Source: a virus
Length of the DNA: 29,701 nt
IMG/VR virus record: IMGVR_UViG_3300027906_000095
Coordinates: 1 to 29,701 of that record
Strand: one strand, 5' to 3'
Shown here: positions 12,137 to 29,401 of the stretch, one piece after another
How the letters are laid out: the number at the start of each line of letters is the position of its first letter
Position numbering within the stretch: position 1 is the stretch's first letter
Notes under the pieces: model-generated
The model's database searches: none
What the model saw: only the letters and a program-made list of their open reading frames with translations
Told to the model about the DNA's origin: nothing
Position numbers and translations under genes: made by a program

Positions 12137-12144
12137 TATTTATA
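12137..12144 (-). promoter_or_regulatory. T4-type late box TATAAATA for the lysis cassette
   Basis: A perfect TATAAATA on the minus strand. Five bases (GGCGT) separate it from the ATG at 12131, so with T4 geometry the transcript would start exactly at the A of the start codon. It overlaps the stop codon of gp41. Confidence 0.7.
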
Positions 12145-13519
12145 CTTTTATTTGACTCAAGTTCATACGAGAACCAAAATTTCCTTTATCAAATACTGGT
12201 TGGTCATCTTCCTGTCCAGAATCTACCAGATTTTGTTGAGCATCTTCTAAATCATACAATCTCATCTTCGCCCTATCAACACCAATCATAAATCGTTTGT
12301 TTCTTGTAGGGTCACTATATCTATTCTTCAATTGTTTGACCATCATATGACCTTGTTGTTCTAACTCTTCTGTACTGATAAGAGCAAACATCAAATCAGC
12401 GGTTGCAGGCAATCCAAAACTCTCTGAGGTGTCCGTCAAATCAACATCACTATTGTTAAAACCACCTCGCGTGGTCTGGGTTGCGGATACTATTGGTAAA
12501 TCATACTCTACTGCCAGTCCCCTTAGTTCCTCAGCGATTGCCTTGACTATAGTATATGAGTTTGCACCAGTATTATTCCTTAGTCGTTGACTCACACAGA
12601 TATTTAAATAGTCAATAAAAATTATGTCTGGATAGAAATTTTGTTTCAGTTTTAATTCTTCCAGAAGTGCTCGGAAATGTCCAGCATGAGCAGTTGCAGT
12701 AGGATACTCTTTAACAATCAACCTACCGTCAACTTTGTTTTGGATTTTCTGAATACGGTCTGTGTACATAGACTTGGATAAGTCTCTCAAATCTTGCATG
12801 GAAACATCCATCATATTCGCATCGATTCTTTCAGCGATTCTTTCCTCTGCCATCTCTAATGTGATATACAAAACATTCTTACCTTGAGCAATCATAGATG
12901 CACCCACATGACACATGAAAAGAGATTTACCCACACCTGTACCAGCAAGAGCAATATTGAGTGTCTTGTTTATCAATCCACCTTCAGTAATCTTGTTGAA
13001 ATATTCTAAGTCGAATGGTAATTTTTCTTCGTGTCTATGATAGAAATCAAATCGTGCTTCCGCGTCACCAACATAATCGTGACCAATGTTATTATCAAAA
13101 CCAACACTAAGAGCATCTGACAATATGGAAGGCAAAGAATCTACCGAATATGTTTTATCCTGTCCATCAATAATCTGAATAGATTGCATGATAGCATTGT
13201 AAACTGCCTTGTCCTTACAGAATTTTTCTGTTTGGTCAATCAACCACCTTTCATCTTCATTAGTCGGACTGAGACTGTTGATAAGTTCCTCACATTTTTC
13301 ATAGAGGTCTTCAGTAATTTTTCTGTTATCTTGTAAGGCAATTTTAAGTGCGCTTGCTTGTGGTGGGGAATTATATGCCGTAACATAATCACGCACACAT
13401 TTGAATACCTCACGATACTCAGCATCTAAAAAATAAGATGCTTTTAAATGTGCAATTGATTGTCTGACATAATCTTCGTTATGTATCAGATTCGATAATA
13501 TTGTCTGTTCTAATCTCAT
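12140..13519 (-). CDS. gp41: Replicative DNA helicase gp41 (DnaB family)
   Basis: This is the 5'-3' replicative helicase of the T4-type replisome. The RecA-like core has Walker A AGTGVGKS (192-199), the TLEMAEERIAER segment after the third strand with the catalytic Glu, a Walker-B-like DIIFIDYLNI and a later LPIVSATQTTRG sensor region. The N-terminal 150 residues are the helical domain that docks primase. The length of 459 aa fits T4 gp41. The start at 13519 overlaps the zinc-ribbon gene by 41 nt in another frame, with an AAGGAAG ribosome site. It forms one transcription unit with polymerase and UvsX. No primase (gp61) is in the window. Confidence 0.95.
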   Translation of the reverse strand: MRLEQTILSNLIHNEDYVRQSIAHLKASYFLDAEYREVFKCVRDYVTAYNSPPQASALKIALQDNRKITEDLYEKCEELINSLSPTNEDERWLIDQTEKFCKDKAVYNAIMQSIQIIDGQDKTYSVDSLPSILSDALSVGFDNNIGHDYVGDAEARFDFYHRHEEKLPFDLEYFNKITEGGLINKTLNIALAGTGVGKSLFMCHVGASMIAQGKNVLYITLEMAEERIAERIDANMMDVSMQDLRDLSKSMYTDRIQKIQNKVDGRLIVKEYPTATAHAGHFRALLEELKLKQNFYPDIIFIDYLNICVSQRLRNNTGANSYTIVKAIAEELRGLAVEYDLPIVSATQTTRGGFNNSDVDLTDTSESFGLPATADLMFALISTEELEQQGHMMVKQLKNRYSDPTRNKRFMIGVDRAKMRLYDLEDAQQNLVDSGQEDDQPVFDKGNFGSRMNLSQIKV

Positions 13520-13655
13520 TATAAAAATCTTCCTTCACTATTTCAACACATTCTTCACAGAGATACGCATCTCCATCCGCGTGTCTAAAAACAATACAAG
13601 CATCGTTTTCCATGTCGATGCTCTTCTCACATTTATCACACTTCGGAGTAGGCAT
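13479..13655 (-). CDS. Small zinc-ribbon protein between uvsX and gp41 (58 aa)
   Basis: I place the start at the ATG at 13655, because the longer frame lies inside uvsX and GAGGATATC upstream of this ATG is a fair ribosome site. MPTPKCDKCEKSIDME gives a CxxC pair and YLCEECVE a second CxxC pair about 26 residues later, i.e. a four-cysteine zinc ribbon. It overlaps both neighbours: about 20 nt of uvsX and 41 nt of gp41. Position between recombinase and helicase suggests a DNA- or helicase-linked cofactor, but this is unproven; it is not a recognised UvsY. Confidence 0.75.
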   Translation of the reverse strand: MPTPKCDKCEKSIDMENDACIVFRHADGDAYLCEECVEIVKEDFYNEIRTDNIIESDT

Positions 13656-14694
13656 CCTTGATATCCTCTTCACTAACTTCTGACTGCATGATAGCATCAG
13701 CAGACATCAAATATCTTTCTTCAATCCACTTGATGAAAGTTTTATCACTAAGGATTGGAATCCAGAAGTCTTTGTTGTATGTATCTTTAAGTCTGACCTT
13801 CTTTGCATCGTCTTCACCAGATTTCGCATACCATCCGTTTGATGGTTTGACCACATGACCAGACTCAAGAGCCATATCAATGAGACCAGACCACTTGCTA
13901 ATGCCACCTTCCCAAGTAACTTCGATGGGTATCCTTGATTTCTCGCGTACAAATCTTGACTTCTCGACATTAATAATAAAGTTGTATCCTACAACTTCCT
14001 TCCCTTCCTTCTCTTGTTGTCTACCAATGATAAAGATATTGTCAGCACTATAATAAACACCAGTTCCACCAGACACTACATCTTTGGGGAACAAACCGAT
14101 TTCTTTATATGTGTGGTTCACAACCACCGCTGGAATATCTTTGATTGTAAGGTGAGGAGTAATCATACGAAATAGAGATTTCATTTGTTTTGCACGAGTC
14201 ATATCGGCAACTGACTTACCATCTATCGCATCTTCAACTTCTTTACGCGAGGCAAGGTTACCTACAGAGTCAACAATAATAATTACACGGTCACCTCTTT
14301 CGATACCTTGGAGTTGGGACATGACATCATGTTTTAATTGTTCAATGTCTGTGACAGGAGTATGAATAACTCTGTCTGTGTCTATGCCGAAACTGTCGAA
14401 ATATCCTTGAGGAGCGCCGAACTCAGAATCATAAAATAACACCACTCCATCATCGTATTTATCTAAATAAGATTTTGACAATAACATGGCAAAAGCAGTC
14501 TTGAAATGTTTAGATGGGCCAGCAAAAACTGTTAGACCTGTAGAAAGTCCACCATCCAATTTACCACTCAACGCCACATTCAAAGCGGGAACGGTTGTCT
14601 GTACAATATCTTTATTGTTCAGAAATTTACTCTTGGATAAAACCTCTGTATGTTTTATCGTTGAGTTCTTTTTTAATTTATCTAATGTGCTCAT
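13636..14694 (-). CDS. uvsX: RecA-like recombinase UvsX
   Basis: T4-type strand-exchange protein acting in recombination-dependent replication and repair. Walker A is GPSKHFKT (59-66 from my start), the UvsX variant of the P-loop, and RVIIIVDSVGNLASRKE forms Walker B. MTRAKQMKSLFRMITPHL and IPAVVVNHTYKEIG are typical of UvsX. I take the ATG at 14694, since the earlier in-frame GTG at 14700 lies within the AGGAGTGAAT ribosome site. The 352 aa is slightly shorter than T4 UvsX (about 390). The C-terminus is acidic, as in T4. It lies directly after the polymerase gene. Confidence 0.96.
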   Translation of the reverse strand: MSTLDKLKKNSTIKHTEVLSKSKFLNNKDIVQTTVPALNVALSGKLDGGLSTGLTVFAGPSKHFKTAFAMLLSKSYLDKYDDGVVLFYDSEFGAPQGYFDSFGIDTDRVIHTPVTDIEQLKHDVMSQLQGIERGDRVIIIVDSVGNLASRKEVEDAIDGKSVADMTRAKQMKSLFRMITPHLTIKDIPAVVVNHTYKEIGLFPKDVVSGGTGVYYSADNIFIIGRQQEKEGKEVVGYNFIINVEKSRFVREKSRIPIEVTWEGGISKWSGLIDMALESGHVVKPSNGWYAKSGEDDAKKVRLKDTYNKDFWIPILSDKTFIKWIEERYLMSADAIMQSEVSEEDIKDAYSEV

Positions 14695-14702
14695 ATTCAC
14701 TC

Positions 14703-17207
14703 CTAAAATAACGACTCCAATGTTGCTACTGGTCTAGTCTTCCAATCCAAACTGGTGACTATAGTAGTCAATGGGTCAATGAATGCTTTCTCAAACATTG
14801 TTTCATAATCAATGTATCGATGTAAGTCAAACTCTTTTGGCATTAGACCATTCATCGCTACGGTATTTTCTCTCACATGGTTAGGTTCTTTCAGATAGAG
14901 GAATTTAATCTTATCACCATCTTGAATGGTTTGATATTTCTTCTCTAGTTTCTGAGTCCTAAGCAAGTGATTGTAAACCAAGGCACCCCGAACATGCATC
15001 GGAGTTCCCTTAGTGTAAACTGTTTCGCGTGAAGAATACTTATCAATGTTGTTACATCCGCGTGGGAAGGCAATTTCTTCTGGAGGCATCTTACTAAATG
15101 CCTGCCATGTATTCTCAACGAAATCCTGTAATTCTTTTTCATCCTTGTTCAAACATAACTCAACTGCCTCTCTGAGACTTGAACGAACTGGTGCTGGTGT
15201 TGAAGACCTTACAATCTCCAGACCCATCACTTTAAGTTTGGGTTCCTTGTATCGGACACCTTCGTTGTCCCACACATTCATAGCGTATCTTTTCTTCGCA
15301 ACCCATATACCTGTATCGGCAATTGCCTCGCGTTTGAAATCTATCTTGGGTTGGAATACATTCATGTAATCACCCAACTCTGCCATGCGACCATTGATTG
15401 CCGGCACTAGTTTATCTTCCGTAAACTTATCAAGGATATCAATTATCTCTTCTTGAGACTTATCCTTCATGTGGAGTTCTACCATCTTATCAAGAGTAAT
15501 ATAACAACTATCAGTATCAGTATAGAAAGAATATTCAACATCCTCTGTACCAAGAAACTTGTTTAGAAACTCATCAACTGCCTTACCAGTATCACGAATG
15601 ATTAACTGACCAGTTAGTGTGATTGCCTCTGCAATGCGTTCATCAAAATATCTGAACCACTTGTTACCTATCGCACCAAAGAGAGAGTTCAATTGAATCT
15701 TTCTTGCCATCTGGAAGTTGTTGAACTTCGCAATATCTTTTTTGAGTTCTGGATTCTTGGTATCCTCAAAATCCTGTTCTGCTTTCTTCATAAGTTTCTT
15801 ATACTTCTGTCTATCGTCAAAAAACTTCTGAGTAATTTCTGCCATGAATCCTTGTGTATCTCTCGCAAACAGATAACCATTGGCTGCCATAGACAATCCT
15901 GCCTCTTTCATCTTTTTGGTTGAGTGTTTTCTTTCTAGAATACTATCAACCGTACAGTCAAGAGGTTTGTGTCCTTCTGCCAACATCTCTGGTGACAGAT
16001 TGTGTTGCATAATAATAGATGGATACAGAGAAGTCGCATCAACTGATACAACCCACTTGTACTTACCCAATTTAGGGTCTTGCACATAACCACCAGCAAA
16101 TCCCTTAGAGAAGTGTTCCTTCTTCTGAGGAATCATAATGTTCTTTTCAAGTAAGTGATTAAATAACAAGCAATCCCAAGTTCTCACAGATGAAAAGATA
16201 TCATTGTAATTACATTTACAGTCATATCCCATCGTGATAATCAGTTCAAGAAACTTCATCTTGTCTTCAAGTTCATCTACCAGAACCGTATCGATAATAT
16301 TATAATCAATAAATCGATTCCAATCGTTCTCATAGAATTCTCGGAAAGTTTCAAACCCACTCTCCAGTTTCTTCTTACCAAGTTCTACCTCGGCAATATA
16401 ATCAAGTCGATAACTCTCTTGGAAAGTGTAAGTAAACTTTTTATATAAGTCCATGTAGTCAAGTTGAATGATACCCTTCATATCAACCTTCAACAATTCG
16501 CGGTTGTTGTGACCCTTAATGACTTTCTTCCTAGTCATAGAATATGGACTGAGATTGTTCTTCGCGTTGTTGCCAAACATTCGGTCAATTCTTCCAACCA
16601 AATAAGGCATATCAAATAATTCTAGGTTCCATCCAGTAACTATGTCTGGATAATCCTGTGCCCACCAAGTCATAAACTTTTCCAACAAGTCATACTCATC
16701 GGAACAATAAGTGTATGTAACAGGGAGGTCTTTAGTCTCTTCGCCTGGCTTCCATTCACCAGAACCCCAAGTAAATATTTCTTTGGTGTAGTTATCTACG
16801 ATTGTAATAAGAAGAACTTCTTCGATAGGATTCTCTGTATCTGGGAATCCATGTTCTGCTGTTGTCTCAATATCGATGGAATAAATCTTCATCTTACTGA
16901 GGTCAAACTCAATATCGTTTGGATACATTGCAGACAAATACTGATATGTTAAATCAGTTTGTCCGTAAATAGGATAGTTATCTACCTTGGAGTATTTGTC
17001 TAGGAATTCTTTGCAGTCGCCATTATCTCCAAACTGAATTGGTTTTAGATAATGACCATCGATGTTGGTAAATTCAGAAGTTCCATTACTTCTGACATAT
17101 AAGGTAGGTTGAAATGGATGTTTTTCGGTGAAACGCTTCCCATTCCTAACCCCACGAGTTAGGATAGAATTTCCATATTGCCACGCATAAGTATAAAAAT
17201 TAGACAT
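14703..17207 (-). CDS. gp43: DNA polymerase gp43 (family B)
   Basis: The replicative polymerase with proofreading. Exonuclease motifs: Exo I around Asp112/Glu114 (SIDIETTAEHGF), Exo II TGWNLELFDMPYL (191-203), Exo III with Asp306 (YNIIDTVLVDE). Polymerase motif A DATSLYPSI (390-398), motif B KIQLNSLFGAIGNKW (503-517), motif C YTDTDS (562-567), and the KKRYA motif at 637-641. The C-terminus ends LESLF, consistent with a clamp-binding peptide. All catalytic residues look intact; 834 aa compared with 898 in T4. It is read from a strong sigma70-like promoter 29 nt upstream of the ATG. No good ribosome site is seen, so it may be weakly translated or regulated by RegA or autogenously, as in T4. Confidence 0.97.
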   Translation of the reverse strand: MSNFYTYAWQYGNSILTRGVRNGKRFTEKHPFQPTLYVRSNGTSEFTNIDGHYLKPIQFGDNGDCKEFLDKYSKVDNYPIYGQTDLTYQYLSAMYPNDIEFDLSKMKIYSIDIETTAEHGFPDTENPIEEVLLITIVDNYTKEIFTWGSGEWKPGEETKDLPVTYTYCSDEYDLLEKFMTWWAQDYPDIVTGWNLELFDMPYLVGRIDRMFGNNAKNNLSPYSMTRKKVIKGHNNRELLKVDMKGIIQLDYMDLYKKFTYTFQESYRLDYIAEVELGKKKLESGFETFREFYENDWNRFIDYNIIDTVLVDELEDKMKFLELIITMGYDCKCNYNDIFSSVRTWDCLLFNHLLEKNIMIPQKKEHFSKGFAGGYVQDPKLGKYKWVVSVDATSLYPSIIMQHNLSPEMLAEGHKPLDCTVDSILERKHSTKKMKEAGLSMAANGYLFARDTQGFMAEITQKFFDDRQKYKKLMKKAEQDFEDTKNPELKKDIAKFNNFQMARKIQLNSLFGAIGNKWFRYFDERIAEAITLTGQLIIRDTGKAVDEFLNKFLGTEDVEYSFYTDTDSCYITLDKMVELHMKDKSQEEIIDILDKFTEDKLVPAINGRMAELGDYMNVFQPKIDFKREAIADTGIWVAKKRYAMNVWDNEGVRYKEPKLKVMGLEIVRSSTPAPVRSSLREAVELCLNKDEKELQDFVENTWQAFSKMPPEEIAFPRGCNNIDKYSSRETVYTKGTPMHVRGALVYNHLLRTQKLEKKYQTIQDGDKIKFLYLKEPNHVRENTVAMNGLMPKEFDLHRYIDYETMFEKAFIDPLTTIVTSLDWKTRPVATLESLF

Positions 17208-19185: not shown

Positions 19186-19629
19186 CTATTTTCCACCCTT
19201 CCTCAGTAATCCTTTTATCGCCTCAATGTCTGCATCACTTAAAAGTCTGAGTGCTTCTTGAGCTCTAACATTACTGTAACCAAAATATTCTTTTATAATT
19301 TCCAGATGTTCTTCTTTCTCTGGTTTTAACCATTTGTTAAATCTTTTTTTCTTGCGAACAAAACCACGCAAAAAATCATACTGCATTTTTGCATCCAAGT
19401 GTGGTCTGGAATTCATTTCATTGGCTGCCACAACCGTATCGATTCCATGAGACAATGACTTGTTCACTATAAAAGCATTGTACTGTTTCTCAGACCAATC
19501 ATCTACAATCAAATCCTCTTTGGTGTAGTTGATACTATTCGCAAAGTCAAACGGACTAATTGCTTTTTTCTTTACCTTAAACTCTTCAGCATCATAAGTC
19601 TTTACTGGTTCGCCCAATCCCTCAATCAT
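19186..19629 (-). CDS. gp62: Clamp loader small subunit gp62
   Basis: gp62 forms the 44/62 clamp loader that puts the gp45 clamp on DNA. The product (MIEGLGEPVKTYDAEEFKVK) shows the pattern NSINYTKEDLIVDDWSEKQY then AFIVNKSLSHGIDT and KMQYDFLRGFVRKKKRFNKW, which corresponds to T4 gp62 (KDYSKFMVENALSQFP and NYLMAAVPRGKRYGKW). At 147 aa it is shorter than T4 gp62 (187 aa), as in marine relatives. Its start overlaps the gp44 stop by 4 nt (ATGA), the same coupling as in T4. The C-terminus is a basic helix. Confidence 0.9.
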   Translation of the reverse strand: MIEGLGEPVKTYDAEEFKVKKKAISPFDFANSINYTKEDLIVDDWSEKQYNAFIVNKSLSHGIDTVVAANEMNSRPHLDAKMQYDFLRGFVRKKKRFNKWLKPEKEEHLEIIKEYFGYSNVRAQEALRLLSDADIEAIKGLLRKGGK

Positions 19630-20555
19630 TTGAATTCTACACTCGCCATGATATCAGTTAGACACGCGGTCAAGTTAATCTCTTGGTCTGCCACAAATGC
19701 ACTCTTGTACTGATAGTCAGCAATCAATAGTACCAAGTGGGGTACTTGTTTTACCTTATCGATAAGAGAGTCATAGACCTTCCTGTAGACACCTTGTGGG
19801 TCATTATCTACATTGTTAACTACCCATTGTCTCATCTTCTTCCAATCTTTATCCTTCAGACTGTCAATCAATTCCTTGGTGTTTATCTCAGCAATATTAC
19901 TTAGGATACCACTATCAATAGAACCACTCCTAGAATATCTCTGGAGTTCATTTAGAACCCTACGATAATCTGGGAAGTGTTTCATCAATAGTTCCGCGAG
20001 AACATTCCCTTCATACGGAATACCTTCTTGAGTTAGGATATACTGCATCCTTCCCATGAACTTCTGTGCCATCTCTGGTCTATCTTTTTTCTCAATCTTA
20101 AAATCGATAACAGATGTTCTACTGTGAAGAGGTTCGATTATTCGATTCTTGAAATTACATGTAAAAATAAATCTGCAATTGCCAGAAAACTCCTCAATAA
20201 AAGCTCTAAGTGCTGGTTGCGTTGAGTTTGGATTTAGATAGTCTGCCTCGTCTAGAATAACAACCTTCGCCTTACTTTCAAAACTGACTGTACTAGCAAA
20301 GTCTCTTATCTTAGTACGCAATACATCGATACCACTTTCATCCGAACCGTTGATAACAATATAGTCACAACCAAGTTCATTACAAAGTGCTCTCGCCACC
20401 GTGGTCTTACCTGTACCAGCAGTCCCACACAAAAGCATATTAGATATTTCACCAGCATCCACATACTCTTGGAAGGTTTTTTTCAAATAATCTGGTAAAA
20501 TACAATCGGAAATAGTTTGGGGTCTATACTTCTCTACCCATAAAAACTCATTCAT
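19626..20555 (-). CDS. gp44: Clamp loader large subunit gp44 (AAA+ ATPase)
   Basis: The AAA+ subunit of the phage clamp loader. LWVEKYRPQT at the N-terminus is the clamp-loader signature; Walker A GTAGTGKT (44-51), Walker B ILDEAD (100-105), sensor 1 FTCN (131-134) and the SRT motif with Arg146 as arginine finger (the SRC motif of RFC/gp44) are all present. Full length, 309 aa (T4 gp44 is 319). It overlaps the 68-aa gene by 4 nt and gp62 by 4 nt, so the complex is made from one coupled mRNA. Confidence 0.97.
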   Translation of the reverse strand: MNEFLWVEKYRPQTISDCILPDYLKKTFQEYVDAGEISNMLLCGTAGTGKTTVARALCNELGCDYIVINGSDESGIDVLRTKIRDFASTVSFESKAKVVILDEADYLNPNSTQPALRAFIEEFSGNCRFIFTCNFKNRIIEPLHSRTSVIDFKIEKKDRPEMAQKFMGRMQYILTQEGIPYEGNVLAELLMKHFPDYRRVLNELQRYSRSGSIDSGILSNIAEINTKELIDSLKDKDWKKMRQWVVNNVDNDPQGVYRKVYDSLIDKVKQVPHLVLLIADYQYKSAFVADQEINLTACLTDIMASVEFK

Positions 20556-20758
20556 GATTGCACCCTTTTCTGTAATACCTCAATCTGGTAATCACGGTTC
20601 TTGTTCCAAGTTTCCTCAGAACGGTCTACCATGATAGGTTCGCTTTTAGTGAACTTACCAGACTTCACCTTTTTTGGAGTGAACTTTGCTTTCAACAAGT
20701 TCTCCAATGCAACTTGTCTTCTCGCCTTAACTCCTTTTTTCCATCTTGCTCTTGTCAA
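20552..20758 (-). CDS. Small very basic protein (68 aa), TTG start
   Basis: The start is TTG at 20758, overlapping the stop of the fusion gene as TTGA, with AGGAGATAG about 6 nt upstream. The peptide (TRARWKKGVKARRQVALENL) is strongly basic over its first two thirds and ends with a more neutral helical segment. Basic composition suggests nucleic-acid binding. It sits at the place where T4 gp45 would adjoin gp44, but resembles neither RpbA nor another named protein that I recognise. Confidence 0.7.
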   Translation of the reverse strand: MTRARWKKGVKARRQVALENLLKAKFTPKKVKSGKFTKSEPIMVDRSEETWNKNRDYQIEVLQKRVQS

Positions 20759-21522
20759 TGTACTATCTCCTGTCTTTCTATGTCATCTTCTTCGACATAA
20801 GAACCATGTTGTATTTCAATTATCTTTAGGGGTTCATTACCCACATTTGTTATTTGATGCCATTCGTAAGGTATTATACTGAAGTTCTGACCAGAAGTCA
20901 AGTACTCATACTCATAATTTGCTGGATTGCCTCTACTGGTTTTAATCATTGCCATACCATTTACAATATGCCAGATTTCCCCACGATAAAAATGTCTTTG
21001 ATAACTGATACTTTTATTGATATCAATGTTTAATATTTTTACTTTAGCAGTTGGTTCCGCGTGAATAATTTTATAGTCACCCCACGCTCTCTCTTCAATG
21101 TTGACATTACTACTGGAGTATGATTTTTCTCCACCAACACCAAAGGCAAACTCCAAATGAGCATGAGAATATTTTTCTCTTAGTTCCATCTCTGGTATAT
21201 TATCTTCTGTCCTGTCACCACCATTCACAAATACAAACTTGTGGTCTATTCCCCATGAAGCAATTGCTTTTTCTATAAAGTCTTTAGCAGTATCGTCATC
21301 ATCATTAAAAGGAACTACATGGTCAACACATTTTAATTCCATCAACATATCCATTCTGTCCCATTGTGACATAAATGGTGACCCCTTCTTTCTGGTCAAC
21401 CACTCATCACTATTAAGACCTACCGATAGATGGTCACCCATCTCTTTTGCTTGTTTCAATAGGTCAAGGTGTCCTTTGTGTAGTGGGTCAAATCCACCCG
21501 ATACTAAAATAACTTTGCTCAT
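20755..21522 (-). CDS. Cytidylyltransferase (RfaE-C-like) fused to ManC-type cupin
   Basis: Residues 1-135 form a nucleotidyltransferase: GGFDPLHKGH (9-18, HxGH motif) and VNGGDR (99-104) as in RfaE C-terminal or glycerol-phosphate cytidylyltransferases. Residues about 144-250 form a cupin typical of type II mannose-6-phosphate isomerases: ERAWGDY, then SYQRHFYRGEIWHIVNG, then IPYEWHQITN and IEIQHGSYVEEDDIER with the metal-binding His/Glu pattern. The fusion suggests production of an activated sugar or polyol, perhaps for capsule, LPS or DNA glycosylation; the substrate is unknown. The ribosome site is GAGGAATATT; the end of the Mom-like gene overlaps by 4 nt. Confidence 0.88.
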   Translation of the reverse strand: MSKVILVSGGFDPLHKGHLDLLKQAKEMGDHLSVGLNSDEWLTRKKGSPFMSQWDRMDMLMELKCVDHVVPFNDDDDTAKDFIEKAIASWGIDHKFVFVNGGDRTEDNIPEMELREKYSHAHLEFAFGVGGEKSYSSSNVNIEERAWGDYKIIHAEPTAKVKILNIDINKSISYQRHFYRGEIWHIVNGMAMIKTSRGNPANYEYEYLTSGQNFSIIPYEWHQITNVGNEPLKIIEIQHGSYVEEDDIERQEIVH

Positions 21523-22334
21523 AATATTCCTCTTAAAGATGCCCCACCACCGTCTATGTTCCTCGCGTTATGAAGAACATTATCATATGTAAAGTGAGGT
21601 TGTTCAATTTCAAATTTGGGTTTACTAGTTTTGTCAAACCATTTTAAGTTATGGTCTTTTGGATAAGTTCTAGTCCATTCCATATTTGATTTTTTCAATA
21701 ATTTTTTTGCCTTCTTGTTCAGCGGAAAGATATATCTAAACATATATCCTTCTATTTTTTTGATTCCTCTGTCTATCATAAAATCAGAGGTCAACCAAAA
21801 AACTCTCTCTTTGCCAGAGAACCTTGCGTTCTCTTCACATAATTTTCTTGTTGCTCTTGGGTGAACTTTCTCTCCATTTATTTCGTATACTTGAGTGAAG
21901 TATTGTCCACCATATAAAAAGTTACTTGCCTGATATACATATCCACATTTACCCATGATACCATCTGCCATTGTATAAAGAAACAATACATCTGGACAAT
22001 TATCTTTTATCCATCTCACAGCTTTCTTTATCATCTGTGATTCGGAATTGGTTGGCATTTCATCTGTCATGCACATCTTACCAATTTCCCAGTAATGTTT
22101 TGACTCCAACCCAGTAAACATCTTGTTTATTGTTTGTCGAGGCTGTGTTCCCCAACCCAGAGTCAAAACACCTACTAGTTCACCTTCCAAGAAACACCCT
22201 AAAAAGTGTTTCGTGAGTTTAGGCATCATAGGTGAATAATGATGCGTTTGTATAAAATCGATTGCGAGTTCTTTTGATAAAGGTTTTAAATCGTAATCAA
22301 CTTTATGCAAACTGTTCTTCTGTTCCCAATCCAT
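21519..22334 (-). CDS. Mom-like (GNAT-fold) putative DNA-modification protein
   Basis: The segment FIQTHHYSPMMPKLTKHFLG (from about residue 28), then GELVGVLTLGWGTQPRQTI, EIGKMCMTDEMPTNSESQMI and FLYTMADGIMGKCGYVYQAS follows the pattern of phage Mu Mom-like proteins and GNAT acyltransferases: substrate His/Tyr, hydrophobic strands and a Q/S-rich cofactor-binding loop. Mu Mom adds a carbamoylmethyl-type group to adenine to block restriction. I infer a similar modification or a related transfer. The Lys-rich C-terminal part is specific. I use the first ATG (22334); a TTG at 22310 would leave a shorter overlap with the peroxiredoxin gene and is also possible. No strong ribosome site is seen. Confidence 0.75.
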   Translation of the reverse strand: MDWEQKNSLHKVDYDLKPLSKELAIDFIQTHHYSPMMPKLTKHFLGCFLEGELVGVLTLGWGTQPRQTINKMFTGLESKHYWEIGKMCMTDEMPTNSESQMIKKAVRWIKDNCPDVLFLYTMADGIMGKCGYVYQASNFLYGGQYFTQVYEINGEKVHPRATRKLCEENARFSGKERVFWLTSDFMIDRGIKKIEGYMFRYIFPLNKKAKKLLKKSNMEWTRTYPKDHNLKWFDKTSKPKFEIEQPHFTYDNVLHNARNIDGGGASLRGIL

Positions 22335-22917
22335 CTTCAAGATTCAATTCGTGCTGACGCCCTACAGGACTTTCAGTTTGAACATACTCCATCATAGTTA
22401 GTGGGTCAGATACTTCATATGGGTCTGTCGGACAATCGTCACCACATCCATCTTCGACAAATGCGACTTCAACTACACCATCATTCGCGAGCAGAGAATA
22501 TCTCCATGACCTCGCTCCGAATCCCAGATTGTCTTTTCTTACTAATGCACCTATTTGCTCAGTAAAATAAGCACTACCATCTGGAATCATTTTTACATTA
22601 TCGATATTCAACCATTCCGCCCACTTGTTCATAACAAAACTATCATTAACAGATAGACAGTATACTTCATCAACACCATTCGCCTTGAACAACTCATAGT
22701 TGTTATCATAGTCTGGTAGTTGATAAGTAGAACATGTTGGCGTGAAAGCGCCTGGCAAAGAAAAGAGAATTACCCTCTTATCCTTGAACAAGTCAGTTGA
22801 ATTAACCATCTGCCAAATGTATGGGTTCTCATCACCCTGTGCTGCCATGTTTTCATCCCTTACCCTTATGTGGAAAGTGATATCTTGTGGCAGTTTTTGA
22901 CCAACTTCGATTTCCAT
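22303..22917 (-). CDS. Peroxiredoxin (Prx5/thioredoxin-fold redoxin)
   Basis: Predicted thiol peroxidase reducing peroxides. PGAFTPTCSTYQLP contains the peroxidatic Cys62 in the Prx P-x-x-x-T-x-x-C context; a conserved Arg in FGARSWRY is in the expected area. The segment VILFSLPG is the core strand. A second cysteine pair (DGCGDDCP, about 157-161) could be the resolving site. The C-terminal 30 residues extend beyond a minimal Prx5. It may protect the host from oxidative stress while the phage replicates. The ATG abuts the stop of the 54-aa gene (TAA-ATG), and AAGGAGAAG is the ribosome site. Confidence 0.9.
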   Translation of the reverse strand: MEIEVGQKLPQDITFHIRVRDENMAAQGDENPYIWQMVNSTDLFKDKRVILFSLPGAFTPTCSTYQLPDYDNNYELFKANGVDEVYCLSVNDSFVMNKWAEWLNIDNVKMIPDGSAYFTEQIGALVRKDNLGFGARSWRYSLLANDGVVEVAFVEDGCGDDCPTDPYEVSDPLTMMEYVQTESPVGRQHELNLEDGLGTEEQFA

Positions 22918-23082
22918 TTACTTCTCCTTCAACTTTTCCTTGTCATGTGCTAACCAATTGTATATTTTTTTGGTTACCCATAACTGGGAATTTCTAATAA
23001 AATCACCTCTCGGCATTAACCAGCCGGCCATGAAAGAAAGTATCATTCCATAGACAGCAATCATTCCTTCAACCCAAGCCAT
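22918..23082 (-). CDS. Small membrane protein between gp45 and peroxiredoxin (54 aa)
   Basis: The ATG at 23082 overlaps the gp45 stop (TAATG) and the stop codon abuts the peroxiredoxin ATG, so it fills the gap exactly. MAWVEGMIAVYGMILSFMAG (then WLMPRGD) gives a hydrophobic N-terminal helix about residues 4-22; the rest is basic with a helical WVTKKIYNWLAHDKEKLKEK. A single-pass inner-membrane protein with its tail in the cytoplasm is likely. No homologue is recognised. Exact coupling to both neighbours supports expression. Confidence 0.75.
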   Translation of the reverse strand: MAWVEGMIAVYGMILSFMAGWLMPRGDFIRNSQLWVTKKIYNWLAHDKEKLKEK

Positions 23083-23732
23083 TAAATATTTGAACTTGGT
23101 TCAAGGGCCAAGAAGTAGGTTCTCTTCGCGTTAGAAAATTTGAATACTTTCTTTTGAGAAACAGTAACCTCATAATCATCGGGGATTACTTTTAGATTCT
23201 CAATACCTAGTCTAGCATCAAATTGTACATTCGCTTGACCAATGTCAGTAGTGAATGAATTACTCTTCGGAGTATTGGGGTCACCAACACTAAGGACTAC
23301 TCCATTACCACTAGCAACCACACTAAGAGTAGGTGCAGAGATTACACTCGCTGCCCTATAAATAGTGTTGATTTGTTCTTTGGTAATATTGAATTGATAG
23401 AAAGCATCAATTTCAATTTCTTTCTCTGGCGCTGCCACGATGATAGATGGTTCCGCGTAATAAAACTTGAACCTCCCAGCATCAGATTTGCATGTCAGAT
23501 AATCTTCAGAAAAATCAATCTCAGTATCTTCACTCATAGTGACCAAAGATAGGAATTGATTTAAGTCATAGATTGCGAACTCCTGTGGGAAGTTCTCTTC
23601 TATAGTGCCCTTTGCAAGAATAGACTTTGAAGCGGACACAGTTGATAAACTACTACCAGATTTTACCAAGAGATTGGTATTAATCGTAGCGTAGTTCTTC
23701 AACAACTCCAGAGTACTTTTGGATAGTTTCAT
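23082..23732 (-). CDS. gp45: Sliding clamp gp45
   Basis: The T4 DNA-polymerase processivity clamp and late-transcription coactivator. The start MKLSKSTLELLKNYATINTN matches T4 gp45 (MKLSKDTTALLKNFATINSG) closely, so I use the ATG at 23732; an upstream in-frame TTG lies inside the GAGG ribosome site. AIYDLNQFLSLVTM corresponds to the T4 AIYDLNGFL segment, and YNI-type strands follow. 216 aa compared with 228 in T4. As in T4 it would also couple replication to late transcription at TATAAATA boxes. Its promoter is a clear TTGACA/TATTAT site. Confidence 0.97.
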   Translation of the reverse strand: MKLSKSTLELLKNYATINTNLLVKSGSSLSTVSASKSILAKGTIEENFPQEFAIYDLNQFLSLVTMSEDTEIDFSEDYLTCKSDAGRFKFYYAEPSIIVAAPEKEIEIDAFYQFNITKEQINTIYRAASVISAPTLSVVASGNGVVLSVGDPNTPKSNSFTTDIGQANVQFDARLGIENLKVIPDDYEVTVSQKKVFKFSNAKRTYFLALEPSSNI

Positions 23733-23760
23733 AATATACCTCAATCAAATTAAACATCAT

Positions 23761-24274: not shown

Positions 24275-24646
24275 TTAAAAGGGTATATCGTCTACGATAT
24301 CGCCTTCAAATTGTTCGTACTGGCGAGTCTCTTCTTCATACTCTTCTTCTTCGCCATCAATAAATTGTTCGTTGTCATGTACATGCAATGCAATAATAGC
24401 ATAGTGCAGTACCTTTAATAAATCTTTACGGTTAGTACCGTCTTTTTTTCCATACCTCTGGGCATACTTTAGAATGTTTCCAATGCAAAATCCCATCCCA
24501 TGGCCACCATCAATAATGAATTCGGTTGCCTGATATTTGTTTTGGGAATAATGTTGCCCATAAGTTTCATCTATATAAGATTGGAGCTCTTGAATAAGAG
24601 CCCCTTCATTATATTTGTAGTCAATGTTAAAAGTCATAACTGTCAT
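24275..24646 (-). CDS. DUF3310-like small protein (123 aa)
   Basis: The core ATEFIIDGGHGMGFCIGNIL then YAQRYGKKDGTNRKDLLKVL and HYAIIALHVH is the DUF3310 pattern (I-E-x-I ... F-C-L-G-N-x-x-K-Y-x-x-R-x-x-x-K-x-G ... D-L-x-K-x-x-x-Y), a short phage family often called a nucleotide-kinase-like protein without proof. The rest is acidic and ends EGDIVDDIPF, like the acidic tails seen in T4-type DNA-metabolism proteins. I place the start at the ATG at 24646, close behind GAGG, overlapping the ATPase end by 20 nt; the ATG at 24637 is also possible. Function unknown; DNA metabolism suggested by neighbours. Confidence 0.8.
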   Translation of the reverse strand: MTVMTFNIDYKYNEGALIQELQSYIDETYGQHYSQNKYQATEFIIDGGHGMGFCIGNILKYAQRYGKKDGTNRKDLLKVLHYAIIALHVHDNEQFIDGEEEEYEEETRQYEQFEGDIVDDIPF

Positions 24647-25865
24647 TTTCCTCAGAAGTTTCAGTTTCAGAACCATCGGTAGGATTGTCCATGATTTCTT
24701 CTACAGAGGCACCAGCATCAACCTTAGTGTAAAGGTCAATAAAGGCAGTCTTAGTGTCGGTATCGAACCTATTGACACACAACTGAATTGCCTTGATTCT
24801 ATCAGAGAACATCGCGTATGCCTTGACAATGTGTTCCAACCTTCTGGTAGAAACCAACTCATCAATTCCACCTTCGTAGAAAGTCTTTCTGATTATGTCA
24901 GCCCACATGACCAACTTGTCAGCAAAGTCTTCATCGATACACTCAGCAACACCCATTTTGTTCATGACAATTTTCTTCTCTTGAACACTAGAAGGATATT
25001 CCTGTTCCACCGTGATAGCAAACCTTTCTAGGAACGCCTCATCCAGAACTTGAGCACCCATGAACTTACCGTCATCGGAACCTTTACCTTTTGTGTTCGC
25101 AGTAGCAATCACATTGAAACCAGTAGCAGGCGTAATGACCTCACCAGACTTCTTATTGAAGTAAGGTTTCCCTTCAAGGATTGCCTGAAGGCACATCAAC
25201 TTGTTAGAACCCCTATCAATTTCATCTAGGATAAGAATCGCACCTCTCTTCATGGCAGTCAGAACAGGGCCTTCCCTGTAAACAACATTACCATCAACAA
25301 GAGTATTGCCACCGATTAAATCATCCTCATCAGTTTCGATAGAGATGTTAACCCTAATCGCTTCTTTTTTGAGTTTGGCACAAACCTGTTCCACCATCAT
25401 AGTCTTACCGTTACCAGATAGACCACAAATAAATGTAGGATAAAACATACCAGACTTGATAATGTTCACCAAATCTTTATGGAACCCAAATGGGACATAA
25501 GTACTATCTGAATCTGGAATTAAATTTTCAATTTCCACCGCAAGTTTTGCCTGTTTTACAATCTTGGCATCCAATGTTTGAGACTGAATTGTCTCAATTG
25601 GTTCTAGGGTAGATACCGACTCTTCAAGGGCAGGCGCCACAGGGGCGACAGGTTTGAGAGCAGTATTACCCACCGTCATTAGAGTTGCCATGTTTGGCGA
25701 AAATTGGTTCCTACCAATTTTACACTCTTTAAAAAACCACATGGGATTTTTCAACCCATTCGATTTTGCAATCTGCATTGCCTCCGTTTTGGAGAACACG
25801 GCAGACGCGGAATTGTTCACATCGGCAAGGGCCTGAAGGAACTGTTCTTTTTGTTTTACACTCAT
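24627..25865 (-). CDS. cobS: CobS/MoxR-like AAA+ ATPase (412 aa)
   Basis: AAA+ ATPase of the MoxR/CobS group. Walker A GLSGNGKT (148-155), Walker B LILDEID (211-217), sensor 1 IATAN (253-257) and the arginine-finger region LDEAFLERF (274-282) are all present; TDEDDLIGG and KRGAILILDE are typical. The N-terminal 125 residues contain a helical charged part and a Pro/Ala-rich linker. The acidic C-terminus ends ENDSYDF. Such genes in marine T4-like phages are commonly annotated as cobaltochelatase CobS, but the neighbour here is a VWA protein and not CobN, so a MoxR-type remodelling ATPase is equally likely. Promoter at 25899-25927; ribosome site GAGAGG. Confidence 0.88.
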   Translation of the reverse strand: MSVKQKEQFLQALADVNNSASAVFSKTEAMQIAKSNGLKNPMWFFKECKIGRNQFSPNMATLMTVGNTALKPVAPVAPALEESVSTLEPIETIQSQTLDAKIVKQAKLAVEIENLIPDSDSTYVPFGFHKDLVNIIKSGMFYPTFICGLSGNGKTMMVEQVCAKLKKEAIRVNISIETDEDDLIGGNTLVDGNVVYREGPVLTAMKRGAILILDEIDRGSNKLMCLQAILEGKPYFNKKSGEVITPATGFNVIATANTKGKGSDDGKFMGAQVLDEAFLERFAITVEQEYPSSVQEKKIVMNKMGVAECIDEDFADKLVMWADIIRKTFYEGGIDELVSTRRLEHIVKAYAMFSDRIKAIQLCVNRFDTDTKTAFIDLYTKVDAGASVEEIMDNPTDGSETETSEENDSYDF

Positions 25866-25898
25866 AATATATAACCTCTCATCTCAATTTACTAGATC

Positions 25899-25927
25899 AT
25901 GATCCCATATTTCGGGGCAAATGTCAA
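25899..25927 (-). promoter_or_regulatory. Early/middle promoter of the CobS-like gene, with GATCATGATC palindrome
   Basis: TTGACA (25922-25927), a 17-nt spacer ending in TATGG and GATCAT (25899-25904) with TGN. The palindrome GATCATGATC spans 25895-25904. An 18-base block (25918-25935) is identical to that at 10721-10738. Confidence 0.75.
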
Positions 25928-25932
25928 GGGCC

Positions 25933-25954
25933 AAAATGAATTTTTTTTCATTTT
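25933..25954. other. AT-only inverted repeat upstream of the CobS-like promoter
   Basis: Arms AAAATGAA and TTCATTTT (8 bp) with a 6-nt loop of one base type. It lies between the stop of the VWA gene and the -35 region. It could be a weak terminator or UP element. AT-only, so the stability is low. Confidence 0.35.
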
Positions 25955-25976
25955 CTTTCCCTGTAAAATCAACCAC

Positions 25977-28403
25977 TTACGCGACCTCATCTATGAATCT
26001 GTTTAAGAACTGTCTAGAATTGGACTTGCCTTTCTGGAATTTCTTAAACCCTCTCAATATGTCAGCCTTAGTATCAGACTTGACTTCAAACTCTGCCTCT
26101 TCATTAAGAGACTTTGCACCTTTCAAAATGAAAGTAGCATCACTTCCCAACTTAGACTGGCAAGACATGAAGTTATTGAGTTTCCAATTAGTTGCCTTTT
26201 CTTTAGCAAAATTGTCATCGTACTCGGCATACTCACCTGTCATATCAGTCCACGCCTGTCTCGCTTCTCTAATGTTATTATCAACTAAGAAGAAGTGAAC
26301 AATTCTGGAACCTACAAACTTTTTGTAGTAGTCAAAAGTAACAGCAGTAGCACTTTCATAACTGACTCTACCGTAGTTTGTTCCATACATCCCTTTGATG
26401 TTAGTGGTAACTGACATACCGTTGCCTTTCAATTGGAACTTACCAATGTCACATCTTTCTGAACCGTATCCACAAAACTCTTTTGAGATGGCATTTTCAT
26501 ATCTGAACCTACCATTCTCTTCATATTGACCTTCCGCGATTACTTCTAAGTCAGAAGTGTTTCCACCATCGGAAAGAACAATTGTGTTCATAACTTCAAT
26601 TCTGTTTCTTTCCTTGAACTGTTTAGCAATCTTAGCACCAACTATCATACAACTTGACAGCGGAGTAGAACCAAGATAAAGATGGTAAGGACAGTCATAT
26701 CTTTCCATTCTTGGTTTCATATCTCTCCACTCATACGCGGTTTTGTAACCAAGTAATTTTTTGAAACATCTATTGTACTCACCTTGAGGCAACTCAGAAG
26801 ATATCAACTGAAGCAGAGCGAATCCACCAGCCTCAATAAACAACTCACCATCATTAGCAGATTGGAAAGCAGAACCTCTAGACCCATTCCCAAACTTCTC
26901 ACTTTGGAGAGAGTTAGCACAGTTTGAAAAACCGTACACATCAAATGGGATACCAACTTTTTTACAGAAGGCAACTTGGATTAGTGTCTGTTCAATAGTA
27001 CCAGCCATGTGTCTACCCATTGAACCAGAAAAGTCTACAAACATCATCATGCCGTGGTTCTGACCATTTGGCACAGTAGTACTCGATAGGAACAAGTCTT
27101 CAGTCAACTTGTATGCCCATAACTTATCTTCATTCAACTTACCAGTTTTATTGACTCGAGCCTTCTTTAATAGAGTGGCTTTTTTCTTCATCTCAAACTG
27201 CATAACCAGTTGATTGATTGAACCTTTATTTCTTTGCATAAATTCATCAAGCAATGTTTTCTCTACATCCTTAGCAGAACCAGCAGGAACATCATCGTAC
27301 CTTCCACCACAAATATACTTGAAATCTTGGGCAGGCCAAACATCGGTAGTTGGGAAAACAAAGTACTTAGTCTTGAACTTAGGCATAGTAGCAGTAACAA
27401 CACCATTGGTCTTGCCATCTTCTACTAGGTTTTGTTCAGCATCCCTAAACGCTTCATCGGTAAATGACTTAGGTTCCGCGTCATCGAAATCGTGAGGATT
27501 GTGTCCCTCAGTTTCAGTAGAACCCTCTTGAATCGGGCCATCTTCTGGGTCACCAGACTCTTTAGTATCTTCAGTATCTTTTGATTCTTCATTAGAAGGC
27601 GTAGTCTTTTCAGTTTCTTTTTCAGTCTCTTCACCTTCACCAGACTCAGCGCCACTCTCTTCTGATTCTTCAGACTCTTCAGTCTCTTCACCAGACTGAG
27701 CATCGCCCTCTTCTGATTCTTCAGACTCTTCTTCACCGTATGGATTTTCAACCCATTCGCCATTCTCATCCATATCAAAATCATCTTCATCATCACCGAA
27801 CTGGGGCATACCCATGTTCTCATCTAAAAGATCTTGCATCGCATCTTCAGTCTTAGAGAACTCAAATAATTCCTCAGCGATGGCGACAACCTCATCCCAA
27901 GTCTCAGCAGCGAAACACTTGTCAAGTATGACCTGTTCCTCAGCAGTGAATTGTAGAGTAAGGAAAGCACCAACCTTAGCGTGAAGATTGATTCTATCAA
28001 TTAATGGTAATTCTTGGGGAGTCTTTTGTAATTTTGAAAGACCGAAAAAGTCCTTCTTATAAAGCATTTGATATCCTTTATAGAATGACTTGACCAAGCC
28101 TGGATATCTAATTTTAACTAGTCTCTCATTCCTAACATCTTCTACGACATTCAAGAATGATTTGAAATTCGCACCCTTACTAGAAGCGGCAGTATGCCAA
28201 CCTTCAGCGGGAGTTACTAGAGCGTGACCTACTTCATGACCAATCAATAAATCATACAAGAAATCAGGCATGTCCTTCCAATTGGGAAGTACAATCTTCC
28301 TAGATTTCAAATCAAAGTACGCGGTAGGTACATTCCTATGTTCAATCGAAACATCCTCAGTAGCGAGGAGTTTCGCAAGGTATGATTTTTGGGTTATGTC
28401 CAT
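25977..28403 (-). CDS. VWA-domain protein with HExxH motif (CobT-like, 808 aa)
   Basis: Two recognisable parts. The N-terminal region has HEVGH at 56-60 and FLNVVEDVRNE near 83-93, the arrangement of a zincin-like (gluzincin) domain where the later Glu may be the third zinc ligand. Residues about 205-310 are very acidic and Ser-rich (EESEESEE repeats). The C-terminal half has a von Willebrand A domain with the MIDAS motif D457-F-S-G-S461 and later TPLSSCM and IVLSDGGN. This is the CobT-like layout (acidic linker then VWA). It is translated just before the AAA+ ATPase; the two probably form a metal-dependent ATPase/VWA complex. Protease activity is inferred from one motif only. Promoter at 28431-28459. 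Confidence 0.85.
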   Translation of the reverse strand: MDITQKSYLAKLLATEDVSIEHRNVPTAYFDLKSRKIVLPNWKDMPDFLYDLLIGHEVGHALVTPAEGWHTAASSKGANFKSFLNVVEDVRNERLVKIRYPGLVKSFYKGYQMLYKKDFFGLSKLQKTPQELPLIDRINLHAKVGAFLTLQFTAEEQVILDKCFAAETWDEVVAIAEELFEFSKTEDAMQDLLDENMGMPQFGDDEDDFDMDENGEWVENPYGEEESEESEEGDAQSGEETEESEESEESGAESGEGEETEKETEKTTPSNEESKDTEDTKESGDPEDGPIQEGSTETEGHNPHDFDDAEPKSFTDEAFRDAEQNLVEDGKTNGVVTATMPKFKTKYFVFPTTDVWPAQDFKYICGGRYDDVPAGSAKDVEKTLLDEFMQRNKGSINQLVMQFEMKKKATLLKKARVNKTGKLNEDKLWAYKLTEDLFLSSTTVPNGQNHGMMMFVDFSGSMGRHMAGTIEQTLIQVAFCKKVGIPFDVYGFSNCANSLQSEKFGNGSRGSAFQSANDGELFIEAGGFALLQLISSELPQGEYNRCFKKLLGYKTAYEWRDMKPRMERYDCPYHLYLGSTPLSSCMIVGAKIAKQFKERNRIEVMNTIVLSDGGNTSDLEVIAEGQYEENGRFRYENAISKEFCGYGSERCDIGKFQLKGNGMSVTTNIKGMYGTNYGRVSYESATAVTFDYYKKFVGSRIVHFFLVDNNIREARQAWTDMTGEYAEYDDNFAKEKATNWKLNNFMSCQSKLGSDATFILKGAKSLNEEAEFEVKSDTKADILRGFKKFQKGKSNSRQFLNRFIDEVA
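27657..27731. repeat. 24-bp perfect direct repeat in the acidic linker of the VWA gene
   Basis: CTCTTCTGATTCTTCAGACT plus four more bases occurs at 27657-27680 and again at 27708-27731, 51 bp apart, which is 17 codons, so the repeat stays in frame. It encodes acidic EESEESEE-type residues. Similar shorter variants lie nearby, so the acidic linker probably grew by in-frame duplication. Confidence 0.85.
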
Positions 28404-29077: not shown

Positions 29078-29401
29078 CTATACTGCCGATGTGAATTGTA
29101 TGCTTTCGCCACATCCACATGAACTTACTTCGTTGGGGTTTGTTACTTGAATATGAGACCCCCCTAAGTCTTTTTGAAATACTATCTCACTACCATGTAA
29201 AAACATTTCTGCATAATCATCCACTACTAATATATCATCAATTAAAACACCACGGTCAGAATTATCAGTATACTCCCATGAATATGAGAATCCGGCACAG
29301 CCGCCACCTTTGACGCCCAATCGTACATATTTTGCACTAGGTTTTTCATTTATCAGTTTGCTCCAATAATCTTTTGCATCTTTAGTTAATGTTATCTGCA
29401 T
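29078..29401 (-). CDS. iscA: A-type Fe-S carrier (IscA/ErpA/HesB family)
   Basis: Cysteines at 35 (GGGCAGFSY) and 95/97 (SSCGCGES) form the C-x(59)-C-G-C signature of A-type Fe-S cluster carriers; the length of 107 aa is standard. The protein would receive a cluster from an IscU-like scaffold and pass it to a target. Its start overlaps the IscU-like gene by 20 nt, so the two are co-translated. No NifS-like cysteine desulfurase is in the window; sulfur is probably taken from the host. Confidence 0.93.
   Translation of the reverse strand: MQITLTKDAKDYWSKLINEKPSAKYVRLGVKGGGCAGFSYSWEYTDNSDRGVLIDDILVVDDYAEMFLHGSEIVFQKDLGGSHIQVTNPNEVSSCGCGESIQFTSAV

Follow-up and report, generated by a model that had tools for sequence, protein, structure and literature searches.

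Does the gene that phage annotations usually call cobS, together with the VWA gene that stands beside it, belong to vitamin B12 synthesis, or does the pair serve the virus in another way? Cyanophage cobS is regarded as an auxiliary metabolic gene of vitamin B12 synthesis, and virome surveys score it under that heading. The viral record analysed here, from a marine phage and taken whole as the window (29,701 bases), carries both genes on its minus strand as two ORFs with 111 bases between them, and they were found exactly where the initial annotation had placed them. The features it had described in the larger product are all present as well, namely an HEVGH motif, a very acidic linker and a VWA domain with a MIDAS, with the AAA+ ATPase after it (Table 1). 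Homologs of the 808-aa protein are named CobT-like or peptidase in phage records, and using tblastn we found the VWA protein in 463 such records, nearly all from marine cyanophages and pelagiphages, and the ATPase in 817.

Table 1. Features of the gene pair and of its surroundings in the window.
Feature	Positions	Strand	Details
808-aa zincin-VWA protein	25977..28403	-	phrog_459 'peptidase', E=1.1e-168
N-terminal zincin-like domain	27819..28403	-	residues 1-195; AF2 pLDDT 84.6, pTM 0.80
HEVGH, metal-binding-type motif	28224..28238	-	residues 56-60; H, E, H invariant in 62/62
NVVEDVRNE motif	28125..28151	-	residues 85-93; N85, E88, D89, R91 invariant in 62/62
Disordered acidic linker	27474..27818	-	residues 196-310; 43% D+E, 3.5% K+R, pLDDT < 50
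Long helical segment before VWA	27144..27275	-	residues 377-420; AF2 secondary structure
VWA domain with large insertion	26238..27062	-	about residues 448-722, borders approximate; Foldseek
MIDAS DFSGSM	27018..27035	-	D457, S459, S461; invariant in 49 sequences
MIDAS T580 in GSTPL	26658-26672	-	invariant in 49 sequences
MIDAS D612 in LSDGG	26562-26576	-	invariant in 49 sequences
412-aa MoxR-type AAA+ ATPase	24627..25865	-	phrog_249 'porphyrin biosynthesis', 4.7e-112; usually called CobS
gp45-like sliding clamp, downstream of the pair	23082..23744	-	
gp44-like clamp loader	19626..20555	-	
gp43-like DNA polymerase, UvsX recombinase, DnaB-like helicase	12140..17207	-	
Mom-family DNA modification protein	21519-22340	-	Pfam Mom, 4e-58
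Cytidylyltransferase-like and mannose-6-phosphate isomerase C-terminal domain fusion	20755-21522	-	
Iron-sulphur carrier-type protein	29078-29401	-	Fe-S_biosyn

By its AAA_5 core (PF07728; 64 bits against a cut-off of 22) and its Walker A (GLSGNGKT) and Walker B (ILILDEID) motifs, both of which are intact, the 412-aa protein belongs to the MoxR-class AAA+ ATPases. In a sequence search of the PDB its best match was midasin (1e-37, over several domains), with CobS at 4e-22. The 808-aa partner was matched by no Pfam family, VWA models included, and a PDB sequence search with the alignment of its VWA part returned weak matches, none of which was a VWA protein or a peptidase. Structure comparison with Foldseek was more informative: in the full-length AlphaFold model, itself a weaker prediction (pLDDT 69, with the linker disordered), the VWA part matched the MIDAS domain of MDN1 (2.9e-4) and the VWA domain of NorD (1.8e-3). 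The MIDAS pattern DxSxS...T...D is complete, with all five positions invariant, and, judging from the model, the long helical segment that precedes the domain is possibly the equivalent of the NorD finger.

The N-terminal domain is the most constrained part of the 808-aa protein and the one under the strongest purifying selection, as dN/dS against the four closest relatives was 0.065-0.19 in this domain, 0.25-0.35 in the linker and 0.16-0.20 in the remainder. Seven residues, H56, E57, H60, N85, E88, D89 and R91, are invariant across 62 diverse marine N-domains. Four of them lie in NVVEDVRNE, a second conserved motif that the initial annotation had overlooked, and E88 is presumably the third metal ligand. 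As the pattern used to retrieve N-domains itself contained HE, the 21 loci outside that pattern were checked separately, and HExxH is present in every one. A protein of this composition would be expected to hold about 0.016 HExxH motifs by chance, which, together with the invariance in all 62 domains and the presence in all 21 further loci, argues that the motif is not fortuitous. Loss of HExxH in close relatives, which the initial annotation had named as an observation that would speak against it, was looked for and not observed; loss was confined to some distant relatives. Phage nickie and locus L250 lack HExxH, and JPW has a changed downstream motif; not every version of the protein can therefore depend on catalysis.

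In the AlphaFold model of the N-terminal domain a small strand region is accompanied by a helix that carries HEVGH and, later, by a long helix that carries NxxEDxR. Its best structural matches in the PDB were abylysin and jannalysin (probability 0.97-0.99), then ArdC and selecase, with PprI and ZMPSTE24 lower down; the matches were mostly minigluzincins or other zincins, the best E-value was 0.089, none fell under 0.001, and an unrelated protein, AFF4, also stood among the first ten. A Pfam search with the domain returned no meaningful family and reached no peptidase family, and among viral structure models the domain matched CobT-like or VWFA proteins of Haloarcula tailed viruses and actinophages. 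The domain carries the gluzincin-type motif, HExxH with a downstream glutamate, and its model resembles the minigluzincins; it is a candidate for metal binding and proteolysis.

The association of the two genes, which the initial annotation had raised, was borne out in large viral contigs: the ATPase is present in nine of nine that bear the VWA gene, unlinked in one. Linkage is not strict, as the record of locus L099 (G130) has the VWA gene and the ATPase at a distance of about 18 kb. Related arrangements occur in Staphylococcus phage K (L019:4837-5682) and Listeria phage A511 (L020:4743-5588), where a related ATPase adjoins a 281-aa protein with neither HExxH nor a classical MIDAS, and in Pseudoalteromonas phage XG4 (L018:3920-6162), where zincin and VWA are separate ORFs; as the XG4 record is flagged unverified, a sequencing error may account for the split.

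In the window the pair stands at the head of a replication gene cluster, with the genes for gp45, gp44, gp43, UvsX and the DnaB-like helicase following on the same strand. This placement would be in keeping with the activity early in infection that the initial annotation had suggested. Of the 27 viral loci in which the VWA gene is flanked by 3.5 kb or more on both sides, 24 have replication or recombination genes beside it (gp46/47 and/or gp45/44): gp46 lies upstream in 23 and gp47 in 21, and gp45 lies downstream in 22 and gp44 in 19. A search of the same flanks for any of 11 virion or packaging genes was negative at all 27 loci. The annotations of HTVC008M, P-SSM2 and syn9 agree with this arrangement. 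In SSU5-type phage-plasmids and in phages nickie and RHph the pair adjoins DnaE, and in most of these cases DNA ligase lies upstream. Such evidence from neighbouring genes is indirect, and because T4-like genomes hold mainly replication genes in this region, proximity to them in phages is partly to be expected. The replication region of the window also holds the gene for the Mom-family protein, and the cytidylyltransferase-like fusion gene lies next to it; the gene for the iron-sulphur carrier-type protein lies upstream of the pair, and a gene of this type is also found in 3 of the 27 long-flanked viral loci.

Conjugative elements carry a comparable set of genes. On an IncC plasmid and on pKFu015_1, p18001477_NDM, pT159A and pPre20-95-1, genes for an HExxH-VWA protein, a MoxR ATPase and a DUF3150 protein lie by RecT/Bet and lambda exonuclease, and SSB is often also present in neighbourhoods of this kind, conjugative or chromosomal. 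The stretch retrieved from Alcaligenes pGZAF1_VIM holds SSB, exonuclease, DUF3150 and VWA, the MoxR gene not being annotated there; Vibrio pVA249 has exonuclease, ATPase and DUF3150 together and VWA about 4 kb further, and a Pseudomonas plasmid has ATPase-DUF3150-VWA close to genes for a 3'-5' exonuclease and a helicase. HExxH is present in the VWA protein of each of these plasmids. Among genome loci, bet and exo are found at L246, L247 and L249 and ssb alone at L251, and L248 has neither. Plasmid records with DUF3150 are predicted to be conjugative in 970 of 1102 cases, and conjugative plasmids make no virions. DUF3150 (PF11348) was found neither in the window record nor in any phage record tested, so the conjugative system is not identical to the phage pair; a search of the literature available to the analysis found nothing on DUF3150 together with VWA. 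The position beside replication and recombination genes in phages and conjugative plasmids suggests a role on the element's own DNA machinery.

What, then, of vitamin B12? Liu et al. (2021; PMC8651126) interpret genes of this kind as cobST whose products work with host CobN, and call 'peptidase' a mistaken annotation, and a 2016 review had already doubted the homology of cyanophage cobS to bacterial cobS (PMC5083919). Against the CobS model TIGR01650 the ATPase scored 83.9 bits, over 470 bits short of the curated equivalog cut-off of 558.55. The 808-aa protein gave no match at E<=0.01 to the CobT model TIGR01651 (cut-off 759.05 bits), for which a bona fide CobT from Cereibacter, the positive control, scored 808 bits. 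The window holds no CobN, just as the initial annotation had stated. A search of 24 further records for CobN was likewise negative in the 23 phage and plasmid records with family members (nine named phage genomes among them) and in one Cereibacter plasmid. The latter carries cellular cobST, which can therefore sit apart from cobN, so that the absence of CobN alone is not diagnostic. Among sampled Pseudomonadota, a CobN match was present in 28 of 33 CobT-family genomes and in 3 of 8 DUF3150 genomes (Fisher p about 0.013; G022 is in both sets, and genome completeness is not given). Strong CobT-family matches occur with no CobN match in G015, G023, G082 and G122, possibly incomplete assemblies. 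Moreover, the pair-carrying phages HTVC008M and Mosig infect SAR11, which is reported to be auxotrophic for B12 (PMC9296465). Both the motifs and the scores speak against CobST, and by the tests run on these sequences the zincin-VWA/MoxR pair is not a cobaltochelatase. The initial annotation had called this activity doubtful, and the wide failure of the CobS and CobT models, the lack of CobN in 23 related records and the presence of the pair in SAR11 phages all strengthen that doubt.

The pair does have a relationship with CobS and CobT. The cellular CobT proteins examined lack HExxH, and nearly all retain ExxRxE. In hhalign comparisons the marine phage N-domains matched those of plasmids and other phages (probability 99, E=7.8e-18), and the profile of the latter matched that of CobT N-domains (probability 95, E=2.4e-8). 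Compared directly, marine and CobT N-domains gave no significant match (probability 3.6), so the link between them rests on the plasmid forms as intermediates. Following this chain, we infer that CobT carries a decayed zincin domain. In trees of the ATPases, 15 marine phage sequences, 13 CobS and 24 NorQ/CbbQ each form a well-supported group. In AU tests, a clade that unites CobS with the marine phage ATPases (p 0.375) and a placement of CobS outside every mobile-element form (p 0.198) both escaped rejection; exclusion of the marine phage ATPases from the CobS clade, and nesting of CobS inside the mobile-element forms, were accordingly both considered and not shown. The trees are compatible with recruitment of CobS/CobT from the mobile-element system. 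Only tentatively do we propose a single widespread system of mobile elements to which both the phage and the plasmid pairs belong, an ATP-driven protease that would remodel DNA replication and recombination complexes, and from which bacterial CobS/CobT would have been recruited with loss of the zincin site.

Several readings of the pair have to be weighed. If it joined host CobN, it would provide more cobalamin for nucleotide synthesis, as the cyanophage auxiliary metabolic gene literature and Liu et al. (2021) propose; in its favour, the ATPase is a distant homolog of CobS (84 bits, and the CobS match in the PDB), the N-domains of plasmids and other phages are distantly homologous to that of CobT, and the AU test does not reject a clade of CobS and the marine phage ATPases. 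Set against the missed CobS cut-off and lack of any CobT match, the HExxH that bona fide CobT proteins lack, the auxotrophy of the host of relatives and the lack of a CobN match in five of the eight DUF3150-system genomes, this reading is highly improbable. If, instead, the zincin site bound metal only structurally and the machine were a pure remodeller, the retention of the CobT N-domain despite the loss of HExxH, and the condition of nickie and L250, would be explained; the strict conservation of H, E, H, N, E, D and R in the 62 marine sequences, including the catalytic-type glutamate E57, makes this quite improbable.

A function in virion assembly, with a MoxR-VWA chaperone and a metallopeptidase that processes structural proteins, sits poorly with the homologous HExxH-VWA/MoxR genes kept by conjugative plasmids, a distribution that argues against it as the shared role, and with the flanks of the 27 viral loci, none of which has a virion gene. 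It was proposed earlier for the same architecture in group 2.2 jumbo phages (Iyer and Aravind, 2021; PMC7824862), and the MoxR/VWA pair p618/p892 of ATV is tied to tail development (PMC4124505); we consider it unlikely here. Rather unlikely, too, is a counter-defence or host take-over protease that would protect the element's DNA by unfolding and cleaving a defence or regulatory protein of the host. Such a protease would suit a pair common to phages and conjugative elements, and the fold matches include the ArdC antirestriction and PprI/IrrE zincins, but PADLOC gave no match for the VWA protein and weak matches for the ATPase, and cobS, the ATPase gene, is a conserved cyanophage core gene and not a variable accessory one (PMC3037559).

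Neither the metallopeptidase-vWA/MoxR architecture (Iyer and Aravind, 2021) nor the cobST naming (Liu et al., 2021) is new. The jumbo-phage pair, compared by description only, likewise consists of a MoxR ATPase and a VWA protein that has a metallopeptidase domain at its N-terminus; virion assembly was proposed for it, whereas the neighbourhoods in the present analysis are those of replication and recombination and extend to conjugative plasmids. CobS/CobT share the AAA+ ATPase, which is homologous, and the VWA protein with an acidic linker and a related N-domain, and differ by the absence of HExxH from CobT, by equivalog cut-offs that the present pair falls far under and by CobN, which it lacks. 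The conjugative cluster has the HExxH-VWA and MoxR genes beside recombination genes, and a homologous N-domain, but a third gene, DUF3150. NorQ/NorD also combine a MoxR AAA+ ring with a VWA partner that has an N-domain and a linker, and the VWA folds match, yet they insert iron into nitric oxide reductase and their ATPase falls in a separate clade. In ATV a MoxR ATPase interacts with a VWA protein (PMC4124505), although this is an archaeal virus, the process is tail development and no peptidase domain is reported (PMC7824862). Midasin (Rea1/Mdn1), the best PDB sequence match of the ATPase, joins an AAA+ ring to a MIDAS VWA domain but is a single giant eukaryotic protein that acts on pre-ribosomes.

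Finally, the reading we prefer, to which we give an even chance, is that the pair is a two-gene remodeller, possibly a protease, that acts on replication and recombination complexes. Intact ATPase and MIDAS motifs, the invariant HExxH...NxxEDxR, the conserved pairing, the conserved replication/recombination neighbourhood and its counterpart in conjugative elements are seen in the sequence; that the two proteins form a complex, that metal is bound, that proteolysis takes place and what the substrate is are what we infer. The MoxR ring, driven by ATP, would move its VWA partner, whose MIDAS site would grip the target, while the gluzincin-type N-domain, tethered by the long acidic linker, would bind metal and probably cut or clamp the same target. 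NorQD serves as the working model, in which the VWA domain is turned by the ring relative to the N-domain while the linker is stretched (PMC13036017). The likeliest targets would be the replication and recombination complexes of the phage itself or of the host (gp46/47, UvsX, clamp, loader), which might, for example, be dismantled or recycled. The initial annotation had offered MoxR-VWA remodelling with possible protease activity, which the conserved motifs, the zincin-like model and the NorD and midasin VWA matches favour, and metal insertion, for which we found no specific support. If the pair is indeed a replication/recombination remodeller, the inferences on vitamin B12 drawn from cobS in viromes would be wrong for this gene. 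The kind of neighbourhood shared by phages and conjugative elements gives a core gene of highly abundant marine viruses a specific function that can be tested.
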